From: Dictyobacter formicarum | GTDB taxonomy: Bacteria; Chloroflexota; Ktedonobacteria; Ktedonobacterales; Ktedonobacteraceae | Direction of reading: 5' to 3' | NCBI RefSeq assembly: GCF_016587435.1 | Contig: NZ_BNJJ01000017.1 | Location: 62,001-126,000 of the forward strand | DNA: 64,000 nt | Shown here: positions 11,036 through 51,817 of the stretch, piece after piece | Layout: each line of letters begins with the position of its first letter | Numbering within the stretch: the first letter of the stretch is position 1 | The notes under the pieces: generated by a model | What the model was told of the DNA's origin: nothing | Database searches by the model: none | What the model saw: only the letters and a program-made list of their open reading frames with translations | Program-made: the position numbers and the translations under genes

Positions 11036-11312
11036 TCCGCGAGCGCATACAGCGTAGAGTGTACCTCATGCGAGCAGGAATGCAACAATTATACTCATGT
11101 ATATAACGCAGTATTATTGAACGTCGTTATGCATGTGTTTATAAATTGTATTCTTATTCATTGTGTATCACGTATTAAAATCAGCTAAGTGTTATGCGAT
11201 TCAGCTGCTTACAAATAACTTTCATCGTGTCATATTCAATTCTAGCGCAACAGCTGATTGCTCTTGTAGTTATGAACTGATAGCATTATCAAGAAAGGAA
11301 TCTCTCCATGAC
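11036..11312. other. AT-rich left flank of the TnpB element
   Basis: No gene. Near its right end, AAAGGA followed eight bases later by ATGACA (11309) looks like the start of a short gene that is cut off by the element. This is tentative. Confidence 0.3.
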
Positions 11313-11402
11313 ATAGAGGGCTTTAGCCCTCGCTTGTTGAAAATGTGTTCCAAGTGTGCTATACTCAACAGGAAGCAGATCATCTGGGAGGAGCGCGGCA
11401 CG

Positions 11403-12806
11403 ATGGCAAAAGCAACCACCACCATTCGGCAAACACTGAACTACAACCCAGCTTCTGGCGCGTGGTTTGCTGCCACTCAGACCCTTTTCAACCAGATCGC
11501 AGCTTTCTACTTCTCCGTCATCCAGGCTCACGAACGGGTGTTAGCGTTAGGCAATCAACAAGCTCTCACTGCTCTTGAGAAGCTCACTCACGCCACAGCG
11601 ATCAACCCCGATCCAGTCATGCCGCTTCGCTCAATCGCAGCAGGCATTCCTGCCATGTTCCGGCGTGCTGCTATCAATGCAGCTTTGGGTTCAGCTCGTT
11701 CGTTCTACAGCCATCTCTCCCGTTGGCGCCAGCGCAAAGAGAAAGCAGAGGCCAAGGGGAAAAAGTTCAAAGAGCGTCCACCAGTCCCTCCTCGCACCTG
11801 GAACAAATCAGTGACGCTCTATGCGGGAATGTGGAAAGAGCGCAATGGCTCCTCCATCATGATCAAAATCTGGACAGGTTCATGCTGGAGTTGGATCAGA
11901 GCACGGGTCACGGGTCGTGTTCTTCCAGAAGGATGGGAGCTGTGTAGTCCACAATTGGTGTATCGGGGCGGTCGGTGGTACGTGCATACGCCGGTCGAAA
12001 AAAAGATACAAAATCCTGTCACAATAGCAAAGCAAATCAAGACCAATGAGCAGACTCGTATCTGTGCAGTTGATTTGAATCTCAACGAACATATCGCTGT
12101 GTGTACGGTCCGAGATGGTGAAGGTTCGACTCTTGCCACGCTCTTTATTGGAGGTGGACAACGAGTATCCGGCTTTAGGAAGCGCGTCTTGGGTCGTATT
12201 GCACGCAACCGCAAACAAACTGGCATCATTGCGGAAGGTGAACAGGACAATGCAGATCTGTGGAAGAAGATCAGGAATGGAGACGATTACGTCGCCCATC
12301 GCGTGAGCAAGCGCATTGTCCAGTTTGCCCAGGAGCATGGAGCAAGTATTCTCGTGTTTGAGCACCTTGGGAACCTGCAACCCACGAAAGGCAAGTACAG
12401 TAAGCGTTCCAACGAGAAACGTGCCTTTTGGATGAAAGGTCGTATCTTCACTGACACCAAGTACAAAGCGTATCATGCAGGCATGCTCACCAGTCGGGTC
12501 AGTCCGAGAAATACCAGCCGTGAATGTGCGTGCTGTGGAAGTCTGGTCGCTCGCTATGCAGAGGGGCAGGAAGCCCAAGGGTACACCTCTGGTGCTCCAC
12601 TGGTCTATTGTGCAAGCTGTGGGATGCGCAAGAATGCAGATCTGAATGCCAGTTTGATGATTGGGAACCGACTTTTTGAACGCTTTGGAATATGCTTCCA
12701 GGAAAAGCCTCAAACTCCTCCGGCGACGGAGAGGGAAGAGCAATCTTCAGGTGTTACTGTTCTCCAAGAGCCCAATATTCAAGTTGTGGGCCATGGTAGG
12801 GCATGA
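11403..12806 (+). CDS. tnpB: TnpB RNA-guided endonuclease
   Basis: A 467-residue protein with a complete RuvC catalytic triad: Asp224 in AVDLNLNEHIAV, Glu320 in LVFEHLGNLQ, and Asp413 in KNADLNASLM. Between the last two blocks is a four-cysteine zinc ribbon, CACC (near 12530) and CASC (near 12610). TnpB proteins use an omega RNA from the element's right end to cut DNA next to a short motif, and they are ancestors of Cas12. All key residues are intact, so nuclease activity is plausible. The ATG at 11403 follows GGGAGGAG; the reading frame extends 80 codons further upstream without a ribosome site. A long antisense ORF (11880-12743) is a shadow. Confidence 0.92.
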   Translation: MAKATTTIRQTLNYNPASGAWFAATQTLFNQIAAFYFSVIQAHERVLALGNQQALTALEKLTHATAINPDPVMPLRSIAAGIPAMFRRAAINAALGSARSFYSHLSRWRQRKEKAEAKGKKFKERPPVPPRTWNKSVTLYAGMWKERNGSSIMIKIWTGSCWSWIRARVTGRVLPEGWELCSPQLVYRGGRWYVHTPVEKKIQNPVTIAKQIKTNEQTRICAVDLNLNEHIAVCTVRDGEGSTLATLFIGGGQRVSGFRKRVLGRIARNRKQTGIIAEGEQDNADLWKKIRNGDDYVAHRVSKRIVQFAQEHGASILVFEHLGNLQPTKGKYSKRSNEKRAFWMKGRIFTDTKYKAYHAGMLTSRVSPRNTSRECACCGSLVARYAEGQEAQGYTSGAPLVYCASCGMRKNADLNASLMIGNRLFERFGICFQEKPQTPPATEREEQSSGVTVLQEPNIQVVGHGRA

Positions 12807-39417: not shown

Positions 39418-39510
39418 TATAATCAGATATGAAGCGCTTGTCAAGGAAAACCAATATATCGCCAGCCTCGCGCATCTCACTCCCCATAAAAAAACTCTCT
39501 CGTTATGTGC

Positions 39511-39539
39511 TTGACAGGAAGATGGTGTAAAGGTATATT
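39511..39539 (+). promoter_or_regulatory. Promoter of the arsR-MFS operon
   Basis: TTGACA (39511-39516), a 17-base spacer and TATATT (39534-39539) form a near-consensus sigma-70 promoter. It rules out the longest ORF start at 39505. Confidence 0.85.
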
Positions 39540-39542
39540 TAT

Positions 39543-39566
39543 AACGTACGGTAAATATCGTACGTT
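39543..39566. promoter_or_regulatory. Operator at the arsR transcription start
   Basis: aacgtacg-gtaaatat-cgtacgtt has perfect 8-bp arms. It begins four bases after the -10 box, so a bound dimer would block initiation. The likely ligand protein is the ArsR-type product downstream. Confidence 0.75.
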
Positions 39567-39606
39567 AGGGAATGGCAGTACGGATAGACAGGAGGCAGGT
39601 TCAGAA

Positions 39607-40251
39607 TTGGAGAAGCATGCTGATACGACTGTAGAGGCGAATGGGGCTGTTGTGATGCCTGAGTTGCCGGCTACCCTTACGGTCAATACGGCGCAGCAAT
39701 TTAAAGCCATTGGGGACACGACGCGGATGAGTATTCTGGATCTCATTAAGTATGAGCCGCTGACGGCCAAGCAGATTGGTGGACGACTAAAGATTCCGGC
39801 CGGGACCGTTGGGCACCATTTGCAGGTTCTGGAGGCGGCTGGACTGGCCCAGGTTGTCGCGCGGCGTTTAGTACACGGGATCACGGCCAAGTATTATACA
39901 CGCACCGCGCGCCTGTTTATCTTTGATTTTCCGCCCGAGGTTGCTTCGGGTATGGAGAGGACGCTGAATTTTCTGACGCAGACCCGCGAACAACTGGTAG
40001 ATACGCTGGCGGCGAATGAAGAAGAAGTATTCTGTCAGACCGGTTTTCCCCATGCTCGCCTATCCAGTGAGCGCGCGGAAGAGTTTAGCAAACGTCTGTT
40101 TGAGCTGGCTTATGAATTTGCAACTGCTGAGCCTGATCCCGATGGACAGGTCTATGGATTATCCATCACCTATTTTCAGGCGCCTCCCTATCTGCAGCGT
40201 CCCGGTGGGGAGCAGCGGGACGCTGGTATAGACCTGGATACTCAAGAATAG
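39607..40251 (+). CDS. ArsR-type winged-helix regulator
   Basis: A protein of about 214 residues with a winged helix at QQFKAIGDTTRMSILDLIKY then EPLTAKQIGGRLKIPAGTVG, HHLQVLEAAGLAQVV. A longer C-terminal domain (about 100 residues) is of the helical ligand-binding kind seen in large HTH_20/ArsR-like drug regulators. It has no CxC metal site. The start is uncertain: TTG at 39607 lies 11 bases after GGAGG, while ATG at 39655 follows a GGGG tract. Both are downstream of the mapped-by-eye promoter. It is co-directional with the MFS exporter 57 bases later, which it probably controls. Confidence 0.8.
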   Translation: MEKHADTTVEANGAVVMPELPATLTVNTAQQFKAIGDTTRMSILDLIKYEPLTAKQIGGRLKIPAGTVGHHLQVLEAAGLAQVVARRLVHGITAKYYTRTARLFIFDFPPEVASGMERTLNFLTQTREQLVDTLAANEEEVFCQTGFPHARLSSERAEEFSKRLFELAYEFATAEPDPDGQVYGLSITYFQAPPYLQRPGGEQRDAGIDLDTQE

Positions 40252-40308: not shown

Positions 40309-41592
40309 ATGACTGTTCAACAGGACGAAATATCTCTACCTCAAAAGAAGATTAATTGGGATTTCTGGAAATACTGGACCGGTCAAACAATCTCGAATCT
40401 GGGCAGCTCGGTCACCCTTTTTGCATTACCTCTACTTGTGTATACTATTTCGGGCTCGGCACTCAGCCTGGGCATTTCTTCGGCGGCAAATATGCTGCCA
40501 TACCTGTTCTTTGGCCTGGTTCTGGGAGCCTGGGCAGACCGGATAGACCGCAAGCGGATGATGATCTACGTTGACATAGCGCGTGCCTCCGTGATTGCCA
40601 CGATCCCGCTGATGGCAGCCTTTGGACATCTCTCAGTATGGTGGATATACGGGGTAGGATTTGTGCACACAACATTGAGCATCTGTTTTGATGCCGGAGA
40701 GTTCGCAGCCATTCCCAGCCTCGTTGATCAGAATGATTTGGTGACGGCCAACGGACGCATACAAGCCAGCTATTCAGCGGCCAGCATTCTGGGTCCCGTG
40801 CTGGCGGGTCTGCTGGTTGCCTTCGTTCCGCTGGTCGTGCTGGTTTTTCTCGATGCCTTCTCCTTTTTATTGTCAGCCCTTTCAATTGCGTTGATCGCTA
40901 CCAGCTTCAATGGACTCCGGGAAGAAACACAGGAACGCAAACACATCGCACGCGACGTCGCGGAGGGACTGCGCTACGTCTGGGGACATCCGGTGCTACG
41001 GAACATCTCCTTGATGATGGCATTGGTGAACTTTGTGTCGGCAGCCCAGGGAGCGCAGCTGGTCCTGTTTGCCAAAGAACGTCTGCACGCCAGCAACACC
41101 CAGGTCGGCTTTCTCTATACGGCAGGCAGCATCGGTGTAGTCATACTGGCGCTGCTGGCGGGTAAATTACGCAAACGCTGGCCCTTCAGCAAGGTTGCGC
41201 TGATCGCATTGATGTGCAACGGCCTGTTTATTCTAGCCCTATCATTCACGCGCTGGTACTGGTTGGCACTGGTGTTTGTGGGATTGTTACAGGGATGTGG
41301 CATCCTCTTCAACATCAACACCGGCAGCTTACGACAGGCCATTGTTCCCAACCACATGCTTGGACGGGTAATGAGCATCGCCAGCGTTCTGGCCTGGTCC
41401 GCAATACCATTGGGAGCCCTGCTCGGTGGAGCAATTATCAATCAGACCCATAACGTAGCGCTGGTATATAGCGTTGCCGGTGTGCTGGTCATGTTAATAC
41501 CCGTGGGCTTCCTGTTTACGCCCCTGGGTCGCGCGGAACGCTATCTGCCCCAGACTCCCTTAAAGCCTCAAAGCGAAGCCAGCCAAAAATAA
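40309..41592 (+). CDS. MFS transporter (MFS_3/macrolide-efflux-like)
   Basis: A 427-residue 12-helix exporter. The N-terminus WDFWKYWTGQTISNLGSSVT and the loop GAWADRIDRKRMMIYVDIAR, the MFS motif A region, are typical of the MFS_3 (Mef/enterobactin exporter) group. The second half has LAGKLRKRWPFSKVAL. Substrates are probably drugs or siderophore-like molecules pumped out by proton antiport. AGGAGG precedes the ATG by six bases. It forms an operon with the ArsR-like gene. Confidence 0.9.
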   Translation: MTVQQDEISLPQKKINWDFWKYWTGQTISNLGSSVTLFALPLLVYTISGSALSLGISSAANMLPYLFFGLVLGAWADRIDRKRMMIYVDIARASVIATIPLMAAFGHLSVWWIYGVGFVHTTLSICFDAGEFAAIPSLVDQNDLVTANGRIQASYSAASILGPVLAGLLVAFVPLVVLVFLDAFSFLLSALSIALIATSFNGLREETQERKHIARDVAEGLRYVWGHPVLRNISLMMALVNFVSAAQGAQLVLFAKERLHASNTQVGFLYTAGSIGVVILALLAGKLRKRWPFSKVALIALMCNGLFILALSFTRWYWLALVFVGLLQGCGILFNINTGSLRQAIVPNHMLGRVMSIASVLAWSAIPLGALLGGAIINQTHNVALVYSVAGVLVMLIPVGFLFTPLGRAERYLPQTPLKPQSEASQK

Positions 41593-42032: not shown

Positions 42033-43475
42033 ATGAACCTCATTCCAGCATCGTCACATATCTCTTATTGCTTAACCGAGGGAACGGAGGTGCATGATGA
42101 GGCGCAGGGTATTGTCGCAGCGTCACCATATTTCCGGGTGACTATTTCCCCGCTTAGTTCTGGTCTGCACCATGTGTTTAGCAGACTGGCACAAGCTCCT
42201 TGCTCGATGCGCTGGATCAATGAAACTATATGTGCTGTCCACGAAGAGAGCATGTTGACTACCTGTTACCGCTACCTATCCAGCTTAATGCGACACCAGA
42301 TGTGCCATATGTATGTGACCAGCGAAACCAGCGCCGTGCCCCTGGCAACATTATATCCAACCTCAACTTCATTCCAGCATAAATGGATAAACATCCGGCC
42401 AGAGCAGCAGTATCGCCTGTCGCGTTTCGCTTATATGCACAGGGGTGAGGACGGGCTTTATTGGCTGGAATCGCCGCTTGCTCATGCACAGCTCAATGTG
42501 CAGAGCATGATGGTGGCCGAACTGCTCTATCAACTTGGTACAGCGATCACTTCGCGTGAGCTTGCCCGTATGCTCGGAGAGGAGTCGTTGGATACTGTGA
42601 CAGGCGTCCTGACGCTCCTGCTGATAGGCAATTTTGCCGCCGCTACGACGGACGATGGTCAACTCAGCGAAGAGCAGGATGCCACACTAAGGCAGTGGGA
42701 ATTTCATGATCTCTTATTTCACAGCCGCAGCCGGGCTGGAAGACATAACAACCCGGTGGGTGGTACGTATCGCTTTTTACATCAACTGCCTCCCCAACCA
42801 GTCATAAAGCAGATGCAATGGCCAGTCACAATACAACTACCGCAGCCCGCTATGGAGCGCGTTCAGTCCATAGAGCCCGCTCTATCAACTGTGATGGAGA
42901 AGCGAGCCTCCATACGCAAATATGATGATGACCTTCCCATTACTATCGCGCAGCTAAGTGAGTTCCTCTATCGCGTCGCGCGCGTCAAAGAGATCTATAC
43001 ATATGGCGAAAGCGAACTGACCAAAAGACCCTATCCCGGCGCAGGCGCAACCTATGAACTAGAATGCTACCTGACCATTGACCGCAGCGCAGGCTTAGCC
43101 GCGGGACTCTACTGGTATGATCCATTAAAGCATACCCTGTCCCTGATTCGCGAGCCAGATAAAGATACTGAACGATTGCTGATCGATGCCAGTCTATCGA
43201 TGGAAGGAGATAGCCGCCCTCAAGTACTGATCACGCTTGCAGCCCGCTTTCAAAGAGTTTCATGGAAGTATCAAAGCATTGCCTATGCGCTGATACTGAA
43301 AGACGTAGGTGTGCTCTATGCCACAATGTATCTTGTCGCCAGCGCTATGGGCCTGGCTCCTTGCGCATTGGGCTTGGGGGACGCTGACCTCTTCGCCCGA
43401 TTAATTGGCTCTGATTATTTCCAGGAAACTTCTGTTGGAGAATTCGCCCTGGGCAGCAAGAAACACGACGTGTAG
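42033..43475 (+). CDS. SagB-type FMN dehydrogenase of the azole-peptide cluster
   Basis: A 480-residue protein. The C-terminal 200 residues are the nitroreductase-fold SagB/ThcOx domain: MEKRASIRKYDDDLPITIAQ opening helix, YPGAGATYELECYL (the S/A-GGxxP-x-E-x-Y region), AAGLYWYDPLKHTLSL, and a C-terminal ASAMGLAPCALGLGDADLF. These enzymes oxidise thiazolines and oxazolines to thiazoles and oxazoles. The N-terminal 270 residues include a winged-helix-like segment (ELLYQLGTAITSRELARMLG) seen in long SagB proteins. The ATG at 42033 follows AGGAG. It faces the YcaO gene, with repeat A2 between them, and is read on the opposite strand from the rest of the cluster. Confidence 0.85.
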   Translation: MNLIPASSHISYCLTEGTEVHDEAQGIVAASPYFRVTISPLSSGLHHVFSRLAQAPCSMRWINETICAVHEESMLTTCYRYLSSLMRHQMCHMYVTSETSAVPLATLYPTSTSFQHKWINIRPEQQYRLSRFAYMHRGEDGLYWLESPLAHAQLNVQSMMVAELLYQLGTAITSRELARMLGEESLDTVTGVLTLLLIGNFAAATTDDGQLSEEQDATLRQWEFHDLLFHSRSRAGRHNNPVGGTYRFLHQLPPQPVIKQMQWPVTIQLPQPAMERVQSIEPALSTVMEKRASIRKYDDDLPITIAQLSEFLYRVARVKEIYTYGESELTKRPYPGAGATYELECYLTIDRSAGLAAGLYWYDPLKHTLSLIREPDKDTERLLIDASLSMEGDSRPQVLITLAARFQRVSWKYQSIAYALILKDVGVLYATMYLVASAMGLAPCALGLGDADLFARLIGSDYFQETSVGEFALGSKKHDV

Positions 43476-43556
43476 GTGTGCCCCCACACGTGCGACGAGG
43501 CTGGAAGCGCCCGCAAGGGGTGCACCTACGAGAAGCGCCCGCAAGGGGCACACCTA
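43456..43556. repeat. Multi-arm intergenic repeat, copy A2
   Basis: Outer arms taggtgtgcccc (43473-43484) and ggggcacaccta (43545-43556) are exact complements. Inside are two tandem units of the type gcgccc-gcaag-gggygc-accta (43507-43529 and 43535-43556). The upstream edge gcaagaaacacgacg matches A1 and A3. Its right end abuts the YcaO stop codon, and its left end overlaps the last codons of sagB. Confidence 0.85.
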
Positions 43557-45584
43557 TTAGAAGAAGGGGTGGGGGTGGGGATTGATTTCGGCTTCGGTGA
43601 GAGGGTGGTCCTGGTAGCCCAGGGTATAGGGTAATTGATGCAGGCGGCTAAAACCTGTGATGCGACGATTGTGTTGTCCAAATGTCATAGGAAGCATGCC
43701 CGGCATAAGTATTTTTACACAGCGCATACCAGTGTGCATATGTTCTGGCGCTGTTTGATCGACCACAATCGTATCAATGCCGCGTTGGAGATAGTACTGA
43801 ATAAGATGTTCGATGTCATATTTCAAATCCATCTGTGTTGGTGGCTGACGGTAAAAGGTCTCAAAAGCCTCCTGAAAGGTTTGTTTACGCGGTGTGTGAT
43901 ACAGGAAGCCAAGCCGCTTAAAGGCTGCGGGCAAATAGTAGATGAGTGGATGGTCATACATAGTTTTGACCAGATTGGCATCCGCCAGCATCTCAAGCGC
44001 CTGCTCGCGTCTCTGTTGATACATTTCATGGGCGGTAGACATAACAGCCGCGAACTCGCGCAAGCCTCGCAATAAGGCTTGTTCGGGATGTGGATGTGTA
44101 CCAGTTGCCACCTGAGCTTTTGGCACGCCTTCCCGATTGTCTTCATCGATGCCGAGCAAGCAGATGCATGGCAGCGCATGATCCAGGGTGGCATTAAATG
44201 CATGCAGTTTATAGCCAGTTTGATACTCCAGGCGCGCAACGAGTGAACGAATAGTTGAATCCGTTACCGTGTCAAGATCCAGGCGCGGCAAGCCAGGGCG
44301 GGCATACCACGTAAGAAGGAATGAGTCACGCTCCATAACCTCCGTGCAGCCATGAAAGATAGCCTCCTCAAGGTTATTTCCCAGGGCACAGCCATTCGAT
44401 ACTTCATATATAAATTCAGGATTGTCTTTGTTATGTGGTAATCCATAATAGACGCTCTGTTCTGGCACGAGGATAGGAGCCTGGCGTTGGAAGGAATAGC
44501 CCCAGACCCAATGGAACGCTAAATCATGGTGGTAGGGTACCATCTGGCAACAATGCTGCTGTTCATGCTGCTCATAGCACGCTGGACTGTGAAGCCCTAA
44601 CGTGGTTGGATCAAGTACCGACTGCCTTTGCTGTATGAGTTGATGATAACTGGCACATACCATTGATTGCTTGCTTCTGGGGCACTGACCAGCGTAGCGC
44701 TCGACACATTCTAAAACGGAAATAATTTTACTCTGTTGCACGCGTAAGGTACAACCAGTTCCTCGTGTGGATTCAGGGCCATCCTGTAATTCATGGCGCA
44801 GATTTGTTGAAGCAATTGGCAGCGTTCTATCGTGCTCAACGTTCAGGAAATAGACCAATCCTGTCTGTTCATCAACGTATGTCGAGATAATTTGTTCCGC
44901 CGTGGCCGACGGCGATTGCGCACGATAGGTAAAGGCATCTTGTTTGAGGCGCGATTGCAAGGCAATGACCGCCTGTTCTGCTGTATCGCTGGCTAGCTCA
45001 CCGCAAGCAGGACACGACGTCGACGGCAGGAAAGTATGCCTCTGACAATCCAGGGTCGCCAATGGAATCGACAGTAGCGCCCGGCATGTTTGTAGCTGGT
45101 CTGGCTGCTGGAAATACGCCATGACCTCTTTGGCCACCAGGGTCCCCAGCAGCTCCAGGCTAAACGATGATAGCCAGGGTTGAAAGGCAACCGGCGCCAG
45201 CTTATGATAGAGGAACTGATGGAGCAGTTCGCGTTCAGTGCCGGTGTAAGTGGTACCAAATTTGCATAACTCGGCGCAACTTGTACAGCCTTTTTCATAG
45301 GGAACTACACAGGGCCCAATAATCGCCTCCTCAAATTGGGTATATACAGGCAATAGTGGCTGCTGTGCCAGCAGGCAGGACCGATTGAGCTGTTGAAGCA
45401 CCTGCGGTGCCCAGGTATCGCTACAATAAACAATCAGGTTGCACGCCATCAGTTGCTGCGCGGCATCCTCCGGCATGCATGAGACGATTTGATACCGTTC
45501 CTCTTCCAGGTGCTGCCGCACGCAACGTGCGATATTCCCCTGTCCCACCAGGCCAATAGTATGCTGTGTATGGACCTGTTGCAT
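43557..45584 (-). CDS. Fused leader-binding (E1-like) and YcaO cyclodehydratase of the TOMM/LAP cluster
   Basis: A 675-residue protein. Residues 1-230 form an Ocin-ThiF/E1-like region starting with a nucleotide-binding-like IGLVGQGNIARCV, with zinc-type cysteines in CTSCAELC and CPACGE. Residues about 260-665 are a YcaO domain: SVLECVERYAG, ALGNNLEEAIFHGCTEVMERDSF and LLRGLREFAAVM are the ATP/Mg-binding blocks. The C-terminus NPHPHPFF is the PxPxP-type tail of peptide-heterocyclising YcaO proteins. Together this is a fused C-D cyclodehydratase converting Cys (and Ser/Thr) of a precursor to azolines using ATP. The ATG at 45584 follows GAGG; it begins one base after the stop of the upstream maturation gene, so the two are translationally coupled. 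Confidence 0.9.
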   Translation of the reverse strand: MQQVHTQHTIGLVGQGNIARCVRQHLEEERYQIVSCMPEDAAQQLMACNLIVYCSDTWAPQVLQQLNRSCLLAQQPLLPVYTQFEEAIIGPCVVPYEKGCTSCAELCKFGTTYTGTERELLHQFLYHKLAPVAFQPWLSSFSLELLGTLVAKEVMAYFQQPDQLQTCRALLSIPLATLDCQRHTFLPSTSCPACGELASDTAEQAVIALQSRLKQDAFTYRAQSPSATAEQIISTYVDEQTGLVYFLNVEHDRTLPIASTNLRHELQDGPESTRGTGCTLRVQQSKIISVLECVERYAGQCPRSKQSMVCASYHQLIQQRQSVLDPTTLGLHSPACYEQHEQQHCCQMVPYHHDLAFHWVWGYSFQRQAPILVPEQSVYYGLPHNKDNPEFIYEVSNGCALGNNLEEAIFHGCTEVMERDSFLLTWYARPGLPRLDLDTVTDSTIRSLVARLEYQTGYKLHAFNATLDHALPCICLLGIDEDNREGVPKAQVATGTHPHPEQALLRGLREFAAVMSTAHEMYQQRREQALEMLADANLVKTMYDHPLIYYLPAAFKRLGFLYHTPRKQTFQEAFETFYRQPPTQMDLKYDIEHLIQYYLQRGIDTIVVDQTAPEHMHTGMRCVKILMPGMLPMTFGQHNRRITGFSRLHQLPYTLGYQDHPLTEAEINPHPHPFF

Positions 45585-45585
45585 G

Positions 45586-47715
45586 TTACACCTCAATCCA
45601 GCTCAAAAGGACACGCACTACATAAGGAAAGATCTTGGCTAAAGCTGGATCGTGGTCCAGTGGCACCACCGAGGCACAGATCTTGTGAGATTGCAATGTT
45701 TGCACCAACCATGCAAGCTGATCCGACCACGAGGCGGGGCATGAGTAGGCTGGCACATATCTCTGTTCACCACGCAAGGTCCGAGGTAAATCTACCAGGG
45801 GCGCAGATGGGTATGCAGACTGCTGAAATTGTATGGATTGATAGTGCTGCAGTGCTTGCTCCAGTCCCATTTGCAACGCCAGCGCCACATCACAATGTGT
45901 GCTGTAAGCAATGACCTTGTCTTTCACACATAGAGCGAAGGTCGGAACGTGTAGCGGACCTGTCACATCGTAGACCGTGAATTGTCCGCATGCTATGTTC
46001 AAGAGCTGATAAAGATGAGTGCCTTCCGCTGTCAGCGGCGTCTTAGTCAGATCAACCTGCGGATACGGCTGTGGCGAGTTCGACAGTTGATCGATGGTCA
46101 GATAATTGCACCAATCTAATAGGGCGCGGCAGACTGCTTCATTCCAATTCATCCCAGATGCAATACCGCGCGGTTGCACACGTTGATGGTGCAGCGCGTG
46201 GAAGACCTGTGAGGCGGGCACGAGGCAGGCCTGAGTGTTATGGAGATTGAAGGCCCAGGTCCACAGTTCATGTGCTGGCGGTGGACATAACGGATTGATT
46301 AAGTGAGCAGTCGCTATCGTGGGCAGTGCCTGTTGTTGTACCTGTTCAAGTGTCAACAAGCGCCGCCGATCCACGACCTCGGCCAGGTAACACTCGCACG
46401 CAGTCTGGGAAGCACGCAGTCTGGCGGTCGTAGCATCCAGGCCTGTGGCAGTGACCGTAAGTGGTTCGTATTGACGCTCTAGCAGCATAGGATTTGAGAC
46501 CTGTACCTGATAGACCATTAGAGGCAGCTGGACAAAATCCCCGGCATCCGCAGTGGTTAAAATTCCCAGTAGCTCATTTATACAGGGCGTGATAGAGCTA
46601 AAGAACATATCCGCATCGATTGAAGGATGACATTGCAAGGAACGCAGCTGCTCCAGGAACTGGAGGGCAGTTGGGACGACCGGATGTTGATCGGCCTGAC
46701 AGAGGGGATGGGGTAGAAATGCATGGCTCTTGCTTTGAAAGGTGCCAAGGTCAAGATCGATAAGTTGGCTACTATCCTGGAGATTGTCAATCTGGGTGAA
46801 ATATTTGAACACCTCGAAAAAGAGCCGATTGGCGATCACGCCAGCTGCCGTTTTAGTGACCGGTGGCTGGTCAGCCAGGACTGACGGCTGAGCATCAAAA
46901 GCGTAAAGAGGTAATTGGCTGGCGAGAGGGACCAGATTGGATTGGAGGCGTCGCCATGCACACTCCCAGCAAGCGTTTGCCGTCGGGTGTACTAATGGCC
47001 CGATCCAGGCATGATCAGCAATTACAAGCGCCTGCATAAAGACGCACTTTTGTTGCGTACAGAGCCGATTTAATAGCTGGACCCGTGCCAGCATTGGCTG
47101 ATCAGAGACATGCAGCACAGCATCATAGTCCTGGATAATTTGTAGCAACCCGGCCTCATCATCCCAGGGCAGCGCAGCTATTTCCTGTACAGTTTGCCCA
47201 GGAGTGCTGGCTGACAATAAATCCTGGTGTTTAAGATCGGATGTTGTCGCGATGTCTTCTGTACTCACGCCAATGTGCCTGATACCTCGTTGCAGGCTGG
47301 CCTGTACAAGCGAAGAGAAGCAGAGGCCAGAACCGATGATCAGCAGGCGCTGGTTAAGAAAACGCATAAATGCACGAGCAGCAGCATCTTGAAAAGAGGC
47401 GATAAAGGTAAAATCAGAGGAATACGTTTCTAGCTCAGACAGAGGAATGCTTTGCGGCTGATCCTGGCCTGTATCGCGCAGGAAATGATGGGTATATAAT
47501 TTCTCGACCAGGTTAACAATCATCTGCTTCCGGCCAGCATCCAGCCCATCAGTAATCTCGTCAAGAGTAGCATTGCCATCGAGAATGGGAATGAGGTGTT
47601 GTAACAAACCATGTAAGCTTTTGCCTTTGAGCATCAGCCCACCATGATTATTGCGCAGATAGACCCCATCGTGTATGGGGATGTAGCAAGTATCAGACTG
47701 GAATTTTGGCCGCAT
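45586..47715 (-). CDS. Thiazole-containing bacteriocin maturation protein (TIGR03693-like)
   Basis: A 709-residue protein without membrane segments. The first 80 residues (RPKFQSDTCYIPIHDGVYLR to EKLYTHHFLRD) resemble a PqqD/RRE-like peptide-recognition domain. An E1/ThiF-like Rossmann region follows, with RLLIIGSGLCFSSLVQASLQ and a CWEC pair, and then a YcaO-like remote region (about 380-700). This layout matches the putative thiazole-containing bacteriocin maturation proteins of Bacillus heterocycloanthracin clusters. It probably presents the precursor leader to the cyclodehydratase. The start at 47715 is the first ATG; TTG codons at 47721 and 47727 are alternatives near an AGGATAGG site. 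Confidence 0.82.
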   Translation of the reverse strand: MRPKFQSDTCYIPIHDGVYLRNNHGGLMLKGKSLHGLLQHLIPILDGNATLDEITDGLDAGRKQMIVNLVEKLYTHHFLRDTGQDQPQSIPLSELETYSSDFTFIASFQDAAARAFMRFLNQRLLIIGSGLCFSSLVQASLQRGIRHIGVSTEDIATTSDLKHQDLLSASTPGQTVQEIAALPWDDEAGLLQIIQDYDAVLHVSDQPMLARVQLLNRLCTQQKCVFMQALVIADHAWIGPLVHPTANACWECAWRRLQSNLVPLASQLPLYAFDAQPSVLADQPPVTKTAAGVIANRLFFEVFKYFTQIDNLQDSSQLIDLDLGTFQSKSHAFLPHPLCQADQHPVVPTALQFLEQLRSLQCHPSIDADMFFSSITPCINELLGILTTADAGDFVQLPLMVYQVQVSNPMLLERQYEPLTVTATGLDATTARLRASQTACECYLAEVVDRRRLLTLEQVQQQALPTIATAHLINPLCPPPAHELWTWAFNLHNTQACLVPASQVFHALHHQRVQPRGIASGMNWNEAVCRALLDWCNYLTIDQLSNSPQPYPQVDLTKTPLTAEGTHLYQLLNIACGQFTVYDVTGPLHVPTFALCVKDKVIAYSTHCDVALALQMGLEQALQHYQSIQFQQSAYPSAPLVDLPRTLRGEQRYVPAYSCPASWSDQLAWLVQTLQSHKICASVVPLDHDPALAKIFPYVVRVLLSWIEV

Positions 47716-47795
47716 CTTCAATACCAACCTATCCTACTGATTCACATATCATGTACTACCTGAAGCTCCGCATCTATGCGCAGCTTATCGGGAGT

Positions 47796-47843
47796 TTGTG
47801 GTGAGCAGTGAACCCGCGATCGCGGGTTCGCTGCTCACCACAA
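47796..47843 (-). promoter_or_regulatory. Long hairpin between precursor and modification genes
   Basis: ttgtggtgagcag-t-gaacccgcga pairs with tcgcgggttc-g-ctgctcaccacaa: 23 pairs with one mismatch and almost no loop. No T-run follows on the minus strand. It probably stabilises or separates the precursor mRNA from the enzyme mRNA, or acts as a leaky terminator. Confidence 0.65.
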
Positions 47844-47943
47844 GTGATCTTTTCTCCTCTAACCGAAGATCAATACCTACCATAGAAACGTCGCTACTGT
47901 ACTATCGGCTACATACAATACCTGTTCGTCAACAGTATGGAGA

Positions 47944-48225
47944 TCAGCAGCCGCAGGCAGCACAGTCACAGCCGCAACCACAGCCGCAACCACAATTACA
48001 GCCACAGCCACAGCCGCAACCACAGCCGCAGCCGCAGCCACTACAGCCGCCGCATTGACATCCACAGCGGCCACAGCGGCGACAGCCACACTGGCCACCG
48101 TAAATGCCGCCAACCTCCGCTACCTCGACTTCTTCCAGGTCCTTGTCACTCAGATCGATGAAATCTACGAATTCTTTAGACAGCTTTTCAGCTCTTGCCC
48201 GAACATCATGATCGCTGTGATTCAT
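47944..48225 (-). CDS. Cys/Gly-repeat TOMM precursor peptide (heterocycloanthracin-like)
   Basis: A 93-residue peptide. The leader (about 1-40) is acidic and helical: MNHSDHDVRARAEKLSKEF then VDFIDLSDKDLEEVEVAEV. A GG-IYGG junction follows, and the core is almost entirely alternating Gly and Cys: 22 cysteines in about 50 residues, one Ser, three Arg, two Gln, single Asn and Asp, two Ala. Repeats of (GC)n span about 48017-47950. AAAGGAG lies eight bases upstream of the ATG. The core composition and adjacent SagB, YcaO and TIGR03693-like genes identify it as the substrate for thiazole formation. The mature product is unknown. The antisense Gln/Pro-repeat ORF is an artefact. Confidence 0.9.
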   Translation of the reverse strand: MNHSDHDVRARAEKLSKEFVDFIDLSDKDLEEVEVAEVGGIYGGQCGCRRCGRCGCQCGGCSGCGCGCGCGCGCGCNCGCGCGCGCDCAACGC

Positions 48226-48764: not shown

Positions 48765-48974
48765 TTACAGGCGAATCACATGATTGGCAATCAATGTGCG
48801 TAAATAATCTGCCGCCTCTTGTTCTGTCATTTCAGGATGCAGTTTGCGGATATCGACATTACCTCCAGTGCGATGGATCTCCATAATATCGTCTGCAAAG
48901 TTAATGCTGTGCGGTGCCTGCTCACTCTCTTTAACTGTCATCTCTTCAGCGCGAAATGAACGAAAAATTTTCAT
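48765..48974 (-). CDS. Small hypothetical protein of 69 residues
   Basis: Starts MKIFRSFRAEEMTVKESEQ. It has a basic N-terminus, then HSINFADDIMEIHRTGGNV and a predicted helix MTEQEAADYLRTLIANHVIRL. AAAGGA lies about ten bases upstream. It is on the same strand as the azole-peptide precursor, about 540 bases upstream of it. It has neither cysteine richness nor a double-glycine junction, so it is not an obvious second precursor. Function not recognised. Confidence 0.5.
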   Translation of the reverse strand: MKIFRSFRAEEMTVKESEQAPHSINFADDIMEIHRTGGNVDIRKLHPEMTEQEAADYLRTLIANHVIRL

Positions 48975-49170: not shown

Positions 49171-49785
49171 TTATGGGTCGGGGCGTAAGGTATGCCAGGC
49201 AGCCCGGCCCAGTTCTTGTTGGATCTGGTGGAAATCGATGTCCTGGCGTGACCTGAGCCAGCGGCGCAAAAATTCCCGGCTTGGTCCAAAGAGCAGGGGG
49301 ATGTAGAGTTGATCCGGGTAAGGAGCGATGTGCCTGGCGTTGATAATAGGGCGCAGCCAGGCCATCACGTGCTGGGAGACGGCATCGGATGATTGTTGGA
49401 GGAACCGTACCTGGGCGCTCAGATATTCGGTGCTATCGGCTTGAATAACATACTGGCCCAGATCTGGATTGTCTACGAACCAGGCGATATAGGCAGAAAC
49501 CAGGCCTTTGACCGTCTCTTCCAGCGACAGCCCTGGAGTATTCATGACAATCTGCAGTCTGACATTCAGATCCTGGCGCCCTTCCAGGTAGAGAGCCAGA
49601 GCCAGCTTCTCTTTATTTTCAAAGTGGTGATAAATACTTCCCGTGCTGGCACCGGACAACTGCCGAATATCCTCCATGGTAGTCTCGGTGTAGCCTTTGG
49701 TGGCAAATAATTTGAGGGCCGCCATCAGGATCACTTGTCTGCGCATCGCGGTTGTCTCACGGCGATAGGAAGTACTCTCAACCAT
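49171..49785 (-). CDS. TetR-family repressor divergent from the MFS exporter
   Basis: A 204-residue protein. The HTH is QVILMAALKLFATKGYTETT, MEDIRQLSGASTGSIYHHFENKEKLA. The C-terminal domain is helical (TetR_C-like, with GLVSAYIAWFVDNPDLGQYV). The ATG at 49785 is eight bases after AAGGAG; an ATG two codons upstream is too close. It is divergent from a DHA2 MFS gene whose promoter is covered by two overlapping palindromes, so it most likely represses that exporter. Confidence 0.88.
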   Translation of the reverse strand: MVESTSYRRETTAMRRQVILMAALKLFATKGYTETTMEDIRQLSGASTGSIYHHFENKEKLALALYLEGRQDLNVRLQIVMNTPGLSLEETVKGLVSAYIAWFVDNPDLGQYVIQADSTEYLSAQVRFLQQSSDAVSQHVMAWLRPIINARHIAPYPDQLYIPLLFGPSREFLRRWLRSRQDIDFHQIQQELGRAAWHTLRPDP

Positions 49786-49938
49786 AATCATTGCTCCTTC
49801 TCTGTTTTAGCACCGTCATCATCCGTGCGGACGTCATCTATAGCAACTGTGCGGCCAGACTAGTGGATACGGAAACGTGGCGCCACATCAGTGTAAAGGG
49901 TTGCCAGGATTTTGCTTGCACAACATTGTAACATAACC

Positions 49939-50029: not shown

Positions 50030-51817
50030 ATGGATACTGCGACTCCTAATGTGGAAGCGCGAGAAAGGCGGCGTGTGTCGCGATCACAGAGACCGGTAGG
50101 TCCTCACTATAAATGGGTGGCGCTCACTAATACAACGCTTGGCGTACTGATGGCCAGCATTGACGCGAGTATTGTGTTAATTTCCCTGCCCGCAATTTTC
50201 AAGGGTATCAATATTAACCCACTCGCTCCCGGAGAAACCAATTACTTTCTCTGGATGTTACTGGGTTATATGGTGGTCACGGCAACCTTGCTGGTAACCT
50301 TCGGGCGTATCTCTGATATGTTTGGCCGTGTACGCCTGTATAACCTGGGGTTTGCCATTTTTACCGTCGGCAGTATTCTGCTCTGGCTCACGCCTGGCAC
50401 AGGGAACACGGGAGCTCTAGAATTGATCATCTTCCGTTTTGTGCAAGGTATCGGAGCCGGTTTCCTGTTCTCTAATAGCGCGGCTATTCTAACGGATGCT
50501 TTTCCCGTACAACAGCGTGGCTTTGCCCTGGGAATCAACCAGATTGCAGCGATCCTGGGATCTGTGATCGGCTTGATCCTTGGCGGTATCCTCTCATACT
50601 TCAGCTGGCGACTGGTCTTCCTGGTCAGTGTCCCGGTAGGAATTGTGGGAACCGTCTGGGCCTACCTCATGCTGCGCGAGGTCGCAACCATTCGTGGCAA
50701 GCAGAAAATCGACTGGGCCGGCAACATCACATTTGCCGTCGGCGCAACGGTCCTATTATTAGGTATCACCTATGGTATCGAGCCATATGGCGGCTCACCC
50801 ACTGGCTGGGGTAATCCTCTGGTGATCAGCGCACTGGTCATTGGCGTCTTGCTACTGATCGCCTTCATCTGGATTGAACTGCACGTTACCGATCCTATGT
50901 TCCGGTTGGATCTGTTTAAAATTCGCATGTTCGCGGCCGGCAACGCCAGCAGTTTCCTGGCCAGCATTGCCCGTGGTGGACTGCAATTTATGCTCGTCAT
51001 CTGGCTACAGGGCATCTGGCTACCCCTGCACGGCTACAATTACGACGTCACCCCTCTCTGGGCCGGTATCTATATGATTCCGCTCATGGTAGGCTTCCTG
51101 CTGATGGGTCCACTGAGCGGCTATCTATCGGACCGCTTTGGCGCGCGCATCTTCTCGACCACCGGCATGCTCATTCAGGCGGTCAGTTTTCTCCTGCTCA
51201 CATTTTTGCCCGCGAACTTCGATTACCTATGGTTTGCGGCCCTGATCTTCTTCCTGGGACTGGGACAGGGCATGTTCTCATCGCCCAACACTTCATCGAT
51301 CATGGGCAGTGTGCCGCCTGAGCAGCGTGGTGTTGCCTCCGGCATGCGCGCTACCTTCCAGAACTCAGGCTCAATTGTCAGTATCGGCGTCTTCTTCAGC
51401 ATTATTACTGGTGGTCTGGCCGCCGCCCTGCCGAACACCCTTGCCAGCGGCCTGACTGCAGCTGGCGTGCCCGCCGCCGTTTCCGACAAGATCGCCCACC
51501 TTCCCCCCACATCGGCACTGTTTGCCGCCTTCCTGGGATATAACCCGATGCAGACCTTAATTCCGCATAATGTATTGGCTGCATTGCCTGCTGCCAATCA
51601 GGGCAACCTCTTAGGCCATAGCTTCTTCCCCAATTTGATTTCCTCGCCATTCATGCTGGGAATCCACAACGTCTTCTATCTCTCAGCCGCTATGTGCCTG
51701 GTGGCAGCGATTGCCTCGCTACTACGTGGCAAAGGACAGCAGGATAGCGGGTCAGTGGAGAGCGAGAATACGGATAGCAATCCTGAGCAGATCCCGACCT
51801 CGAGCCAGGTCCGCTAA
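50030..51817 (+). CDS. DHA2-family MFS multidrug exporter (EmrB/QacA-like)
   Basis: A 595-residue inner-membrane protein with about 14 hydrophobic helices. TNTTLGVLMASIDASIVLISLP at helix 1 carries the family Asp. TFGRISDMFGRVRLYNLGF is MFS motif A, and the RFVQGIGAGFLFSNSAAI region resembles motif B. Members export drugs, dyes and peptides. It neighbours the azole-peptide genes, so export of that product is conceivable, but TetR/DHA2 pairs are common on their own. AGGAAGGAG precedes the ATG. Confidence 0.93.
   Translation: MDTATPNVEARERRRVSRSQRPVGPHYKWVALTNTTLGVLMASIDASIVLISLPAIFKGININPLAPGETNYFLWMLLGYMVVTATLLVTFGRISDMFGRVRLYNLGFAIFTVGSILLWLTPGTGNTGALELIIFRFVQGIGAGFLFSNSAAILTDAFPVQQRGFALGINQIAAILGSVIGLILGGILSYFSWRLVFLVSVPVGIVGTVWAYLMLREVATIRGKQKIDWAGNITFAVGATVLLLGITYGIEPYGGSPTGWGNPLVISALVIGVLLLIAFIWIELHVTDPMFRLDLFKIRMFAAGNASSFLASIARGGLQFMLVIWLQGIWLPLHGYNYDVTPLWAGIYMIPLMVGFLLMGPLSGYLSDRFGARIFSTTGMLIQAVSFLLLTFLPANFDYLWFAALIFFLGLGQGMFSSPNTSSIMGSVPPEQRGVASGMRATFQNSGSIVSIGVFFSIITGGLAAALPNTLASGLTAAGVPAAVSDKIAHLPPTSALFAAFLGYNPMQTLIPHNVLAALPAANQGNLLGHSFFPNLISSPFMLGIHNVFYLSAAMCLVAAIASLLRGKGQQDSGSVESENTDSNPEQIPTSSQVR

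Follow-up and report, generated by a model that had tools for sequence, protein, structure and literature searches.

A predicted F-dependent azole peptide cluster in Dictyobacter formicarum and its precursor family of one leader and many cores

What does a bacterium make from a peptide that consists over half its length of little else than alternating glycine and cysteine? The question is raised by a 64-kb window (the whole stretch of DNA analysed here) from contig NZ_BNJJ01000017.1 of Dictyobacter formicarum (GCF_016587435.1; class Ktedonobacteria), in which a sequence-only reading had recognized a precursor peptide (A), a TIGR03693-like protein (F), a fused C-D YcaO cyclodehydratase (CD) and a SagB-type dehydrogenase (B), placing all four genes correctly (Table 1). 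We propose, with a probability of roughly 0.78, that they constitute an F-dependent linear azole peptide system of the thiazole/oxazole-modified microcin type (TOMM/LAP) operating by the mechanism set out below. The cluster belongs to a known family of natural products, of which it represents a branch little described so far; what we find new is the leader family, the combination of hypervariability and local constraint in its cores, and the resemblance of F to a pseudoenzyme.

The precursor is as the sequence-only reading had claimed, a (GC)n peptide with 22 Cys: AAAGGAG (48240-48234) sits eight bases ahead of its ATG, and in the 49 residues past IYGG a lone Ser is the sole Ser/Thr residue and Gly precedes 15 of the 22 Cys. 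The runner-up among unrelated open stretches of 49 residues, in any frame of the whole window, has 8 Cys. The locus thus shows the TOMM/LAP hallmark of an adjacent precursor with a leader and a Cys/Ser/Thr-rich core. In setting such a near-pure Gly/Cys core apart from those of known LAPs, that reading overstated the case: cores rich in Gly and Cys are already known and are not new as such, going by passages of PMC2674419 and PMC4603692. Alignment of 16 leaders gives a consensus of approximately KLSEQFVDFIDLTDEDLEEVEV and a family motif of about KLSEQFVDFIDLTDEDLEEV; the segment FVDFI within the leader is an FxxxB-type motif, of the kind that a part of PMC10634744 reports from the streptolysin and microcin B17 leaders.

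Two of the enzyme assignments are borne out by profiles above their cut-offs. CD scores 316.7 bits with TIGR03604 (cut-off 219.25) and 102.3 with TIGR03882 (cut-off 36.9), ends in NPHPHPFF, retains the active-site motifs seen in LynD/TruD and provides the YcaO cyclodehydratase with an E1-like C domain typical of TOMM/LAP systems; B scores 170.5 bits with TIGR03605 (cut-off 78.4) and matches CyaGox across 457 residues, nearly its whole length. F is recovered by TIGR03693 at E 3e-56, but at 190.9 bits it lies far under the cut-off of 561.9 and covers only profile positions 9-440 of 637, so that its likeness to the family stands and its membership does not. Absent from the sequence-only reading was the C-terminal YcaO-like stretch of F (PF02624, E 2e-12). 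F has the same three-domain layout as LynD/TruD, namely a RiPP recognition element (RRE; RiPP, ribosomally synthesized and post-translationally modified peptide) resembling that of PbtF (8t19, E 4e-8), an E1-like domain and a degenerate YcaO domain, whereas CD aligns with LynD only from chain residue 151 onward and misses the leader-binding part; fold matches of this kind indicate fold, not function. The YcaO motifs are intact in CD and lost in F, which looks like a full-length pseudo-cyclodehydratase. Three other F proteins, two from Streptomyces plasmids and one from Sutcliffiella, show no match to Pfam YcaO. With hhalign, one of these Streptomyces proteins (L054, start chosen by hand; L, G and P numbers are our handles for loci, genomes and proteins) can be aligned to 638 columns of our F profile (E 1.6e-77), the other to 511, and the Sutcliffiella F to only 149, N-terminal ones. 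Thus, the YcaO-like tail of F is not private to Ktedonobacteria. The non-Ktedonobacterial L055:7540-9483 is a normal CD.

These features lead to a mechanistic proposal: the leader of A would bind the N-terminal RRE of F via its FVDFI/IDLTDEDLEEV region, and F, related to the fused cyclodehydratase as a whole and predicted to be inactive as a catalyst, would pair with CD. The latter, having a YcaO active site and no RRE of its own, would carry out the ATP-driven ring closure between successive Cys side chains and the carbonyls of the residues before them, mostly Gly, and the FMN-dependent B would oxidize the thiazolines to thiazoles. We predict pairing, closure and oxidation because CD has no counterpart to LynD ahead of residue 151, the RRE of F resembles that of PbtF and the leader is of the FxxxB type. 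The A-F-CD row with its convergent B would then yield a chain in which Gly and thiazole mostly alternate, with at most 22 rings, presumably bioactive, from which the leader may be removed near IYGG, probably by a host protease, ahead of export via a non-dedicated pump. The calculated mass of the unmodified precursor is 9336.5 Da; a core released behind IYGG would have 4436.2 Da without modification and 3995.6 Da if it carried 22 thiazoles. To our knowledge, nothing comparable to a poly(Gly-thiazole) with some 20 rings has been described.

A scan of genome contigs for F returned a single locus, in Dictyobacter aurantiacus S27 (L001), with an intact cluster: the precursor, F (64% identity), CD (75%), then three ORFs and then B (75%). 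The cores of the two species are identical in 33 of 36 aligned residues and share the register (GC)7-N-C-(GC)4-D-C; 18 of the 36 codons differ and 15 of these changes are silent. The method of Nei and Gojobori (NG86) gives a core dN of 0.048 and a dS of 2.12, the latter near saturation and drawn from few codons, as against dN values of 0.21 for F, 0.148 for CD and 0.146 for B. With its dN of 0.048 versus 0.146-0.21, the core is held more tightly at the protein level than the enzymes that would act on it, and it is not decaying. The sequence-only reading had named as its own refutation either a lack of YcaO and SagB matches or decayed, out-of-frame cores in relatives; it came through both.

Beyond the genus, we surveyed 47 genomes of Ktedonobacteria. 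F is matched in 18 of them, some matches being distant and thiopeptide-type. The leader profile (A1, 16 rows) has 15 matches in 10 genomes, each followed within 2.3 kb by an F gene, and in 13 cases within 0.8 kb; seen from the other side, a leader lies upstream of 12 of the 14 full-length F matches (at least 45% identity). The cores that follow this leader are strikingly diverse: alternating GC occurs in the window, L001, one of two precursors in L034 and part of L037, while others carry CGHRD repeats (L034), CHG and CGG repeats (L044), CHSC (L043), GSC with Trp (L038, L040, L041, L045) or FGGGG (L039), or are Cys-poor (L036) or Tyr-Gly (L042). L039 encodes two precursors with identical first 44 residues that differ thereafter; between the two genes, upstream of the intact F, lies a fragment in two frames that looks like the beginning of an F gene (L039:10121-10335). 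At L044:5489-16884 a tandem F-CD pair, one B, an extra B fragment and two different precursors look like a cluster duplication. B is found at 55% identity or more in six of the ten leader-bearing genomes (8 copies, each of them within an F locus), with no match in G033 and G035 and only 27% matches in G031 and G034; it lies inside the locus in the window and in 7 of the 12 other leader-bearing loci, and L043, among the five without it, ends at a contig edge. The lineages of G031, G033, G034 and G035 may stop at thiazolines. The precursors of L038, L040 and L041 (152-163 aa, 16 to 35 Cys, GSC/Trp repeats), from genomes with no B above 27%, are candidates for thiazoline-only products.

A profile of 19 full precursors retrieved 33 proteins (E <= 1e-5) among 7991 scored candidates sharing most words, and the leader hidden Markov model is positive in all 33, a result that is partly circular in that the query holds the leader and three of the proteins are its seeds. 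Named sources among the 33 are Ktedonospora formicarum, Dictyobacter aurantiacus and a Ktedonobacteraceae bacterium, and the 13 organism-named F homologues among the 120 matches listed are all from Ktedonobacteria. With the D. aurantiacus F locus and a neighbouring major facilitator superfamily (MFS) protein, whose N-terminal 155 residues are 95-100% identical in genome G025, these named homologues support the Ktedonobacterial origin that had been surmised from the bare DNA. None of the 19 precursors has a convincing match in Pfam or NCBIfam; candidate known precursor families for the leader gave weak, unrelated matches only, and PF19409, given for P0146 in a precomputed listing, was not reproduced. 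The precursor family is thus uncatalogued and so far named only from Ktedonobacteria. We found no earlier description of it, or of the degenerate YcaO domain in F, in the open-licence PMC literature, and the accessible parts of the Ktedonobacteria surveys PMC6497799 and PMC13289182 do not name the family.

Taken together, these observations allow a wider proposal, which we put forward tentatively and at slightly less than even odds: a combinatorial RiPP system across Ktedonobacteria, in which relatives would retain the machinery and swap the core, such that one conserved leader serves many products. Its split cyclodehydratase would have arisen by duplication of an RRE-E1-YcaO enzyme, one copy decaying into a leader-presenting F that pairs with an RRE-less CD, and its exchangeable repeat cores would here give a poly(Gly-thiazole) of about 20 rings.

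Table 1. Features of the azole peptide cluster and its surroundings in the 64-kb window
Feature	Coordinates	Strand	Basis or remarks
Precursor gene A, 93 aa	47944..48225	-	ATG 48225 to stop 47944; Shine-Dalgarno AAAGGAG; orthologue L001:7469-7825
Leader, residues 1-44, end IYGG	48094..48225	-	16 leaders aligned and class-wide search
Core, residues 45-93	47947..48093	-	22 Cys, 17 Gly; (GC)7 and (GC)4 runs, NC between
Strong stem-loop in A-F gap	47794..47843	-	Second strongest of 11 window sites at <= -28 kcal/mol
F protein, 709 aa from ATG 47715	45586..47715	-	RRE ~1-85, E1-like ~88-345, degenerate YcaO ~365-706
Fused C-D cyclodehydratase (CD), 675 aa	43557..45584	-	Truncated E1-like domain without RRE, and YcaO
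SagB/ThcOx-type azoline dehydrogenase B, 480 aa	42033..43475	+	ATG 42033; convergent with CD
Small ORF upstream of A, 69 aa	48765..48974	-	Same place in two relatives only

As for the gene neighborhood, the ATG of CD lies one base past the stop codon of F, and GAAGCGCCCGCAAGGGG is present twice in 43476-43556, between the convergent B and CD genes. Besides the four cluster genes, no ORF group is common to three or more leader-bearing loci, except for the synteny of L038, L040 and L041, by a greedy pick of non-overlapping ORFs of at least 60 aa that misses genes such as the B of L039 and L044. This agrees, within the reach of such picking, with the earlier claim that a dedicated protease, immunity protein and exporter are absent. 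The small ORF at 48765-48974 was rejected as a cluster gene, being present in 3 of the 47 genomes and linked to the cluster in only two of those; it is probably a neighbor outside the system. Likewise rejected were the MFS transporter at 40309-41592 as exporter and the ArsR gene at 39505-40251 as regulator, which have no tblastn match in the 21 other loci. A second MFS gene (50030-51817) and a TetR gene (49171-49791) lie close to the cluster in L034 only and are weak candidates. Stretches of 50 nt at -24 kcal/mol or below occur in 9 of the 14 gaps examined (13 A-F, one A-A), the background being computed for the window only, and no U-run follows the A-F hairpin in the bases shown; our guess is that this stem-loop is an attenuator or an mRNA stabilizer. 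Farther away, the ORF at 11163-12806 has paired CxxC motifs close to its end and by eye resembles a TnpB-type transposon protein.

The locus adds to Ktedonobacteria, described in parts of PMC6497799 and PMC13289182 as a promising but underexplored natural-product source, a precursor family for which Pfam and NCBIfam have no model and which can be studied in named strains such as D. aurantiacus S27. The family offers a natural series of repeat cores on one enzyme set, from which one may learn how many azoles a cyclodehydratase can install and which sequence surroundings allow it. For these F proteins, the long C-terminal half is suggested to be a dead YcaO domain; if so, the division of labor between F and CD presents a testable case of subfunctionalized duplication.

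Several points weigh against the proposed F-dependent azole system. The evidence for it is genomic, the pairing of F with CD is deduced from homology, the dS of the 36-codon core is close to saturation, and neither a dedicated protease nor an exporter or immunity gene was seen. No leader-bearing precursor lies upstream of F in L035 or of one of the two F genes in L044, and some family cores have few Cys (none in P0154, two in P0153, three in P0003, four in L042); therefore, what unites the family is not extensive thiazole formation. Nor is azole formation universal in the family, since four of the ten leader-bearing genomes have no B above 27%. The same deficit is what speaks for a product with thiazolines only or few rings, the core remaining mostly as free or disulfide-bonded Cys; we regard this as distinctly unlikely for the window, whose B is in the locus, as in 7 of 12 others, and is a nearly full-length CyaGox match. 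A metal-handling or structural polymer in place of an antibiotic, acting by thiol/thiazole-N chelation or as a poly(Gly-thiazole) surface or matrix material, would suit the extreme Cys density, the lack of a visible immunity or exporter gene and the service of one machinery to low-complexity cores of very different sequence. It is nevertheless unlikely: cores with few Cys exist, the non-repeat positions N and D are also fixed in two species, and outside the L038/L040/L041 synteny the greedily picked ORFs hold no further shared group and hence no metal gene.

Given its hexamer-like repeat DNA and the hypervariable repeats of relatives, one might suspect the (GC)n frame of being an artefact of simple repeats and not a selected peptide; the silence of 15 of the 18 changed codons relative to L001, the kept N and D register, and the presence of leader, Shine-Dalgarno sequence and linkage render this extremely improbable. 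Closer at hand is the sequence-only reading's own comparison, taken at its strongest: a true member of the heterocycloanthracin (HCA)/sonorensin bacteriocin family acquired from Bacillus, with the same three enzymes (F, RRE-less fused CD and B) and a Cys/Gly-repeat core, as far as sections of PMC4603692 describe that family. We consider this very unlikely, as two profile tests failed: TIGR03601 matches none of the 19 precursors at E <= 1, that of the window included, and nothing in the 47 genomes, control genomes likewise giving no positive; and an F above the TIGR03693 cut-off occurs in 0 of the 47 class genomes, with 0 of 14 control genomes positive. In a tree of 25 CD rows, 15 CDs group together (91/98; 90% of bootstrap trees), with the Ktedonobacterial thiopeptide-type CDs of L046-L050 as their nearest neighbors; the tree has an arbitrary root, two long rows from other phyla and no Bacillus HCA sequence, and so does not exclude such an origin. 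What survives of the HCA-like claim is an F-dependent azole peptide system, without strict HCA membership.

The azole system proposed here can thus be placed among known ones. With the HCA clusters of Bacillus it shares an F with an RRE, a fused CD truncated at its N-terminus and lacking the leader-binding part, a SagB-type B within the cluster and a Cys/Gly repeat core; sections of PMC4603692 report that HCA F proteins bind the leader and that the truncated CD depends on them, and an F:CD ratio of 1:1 is given in part of PMC10634744. It differs in that its precursor is adjacent and finds no TIGR03601 match, its core is mainly alternating GC and not CGG, and its F falls far below the TIGR03693 cut-off. 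Calling the combination mainly known from Bacillus overlooked that F proteins are usual in thiopeptide clusters too. F-type leader binding and a fused CD also characterize the latter (TbtF/PbtF and the Ktedonobacterial L046-L053), but N-type LanB homologues, detected by tblastn in all eight loci L046-L053 (with Pfam matches to Lant_dehydr_N/C in L046 and to Lant_dehydr_N in L053), are found in none of the 14 others, i.e. the window, L001 and L034-L045: the cluster is not a thiopeptide cluster. It also differs in its core, where a single one of the 49 residues is Ser/Thr. L046-L053 themselves appear as Ktedonobacterial thiopeptide-type clusters with F and LanB-like genes, and a YcaO-like tail is present in all three of their F proteins tested. 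Unlike the discrete C and D proteins of microcin B17-type systems, C and D are fused here. A constant leader with hypervariable cores recalls the NHLP/Nif11 and cyanobactin precursors, as outlined in portions of PMC4603692, from which the family differs in its short, unrelated leader and F-dependent enzymes. Finally, the LynD/TruD cyanobactin heterocyclases share the domain layout of F and the active-site motifs of CD, whereas the window system would split leader binding and catalysis across two paralogous proteins.
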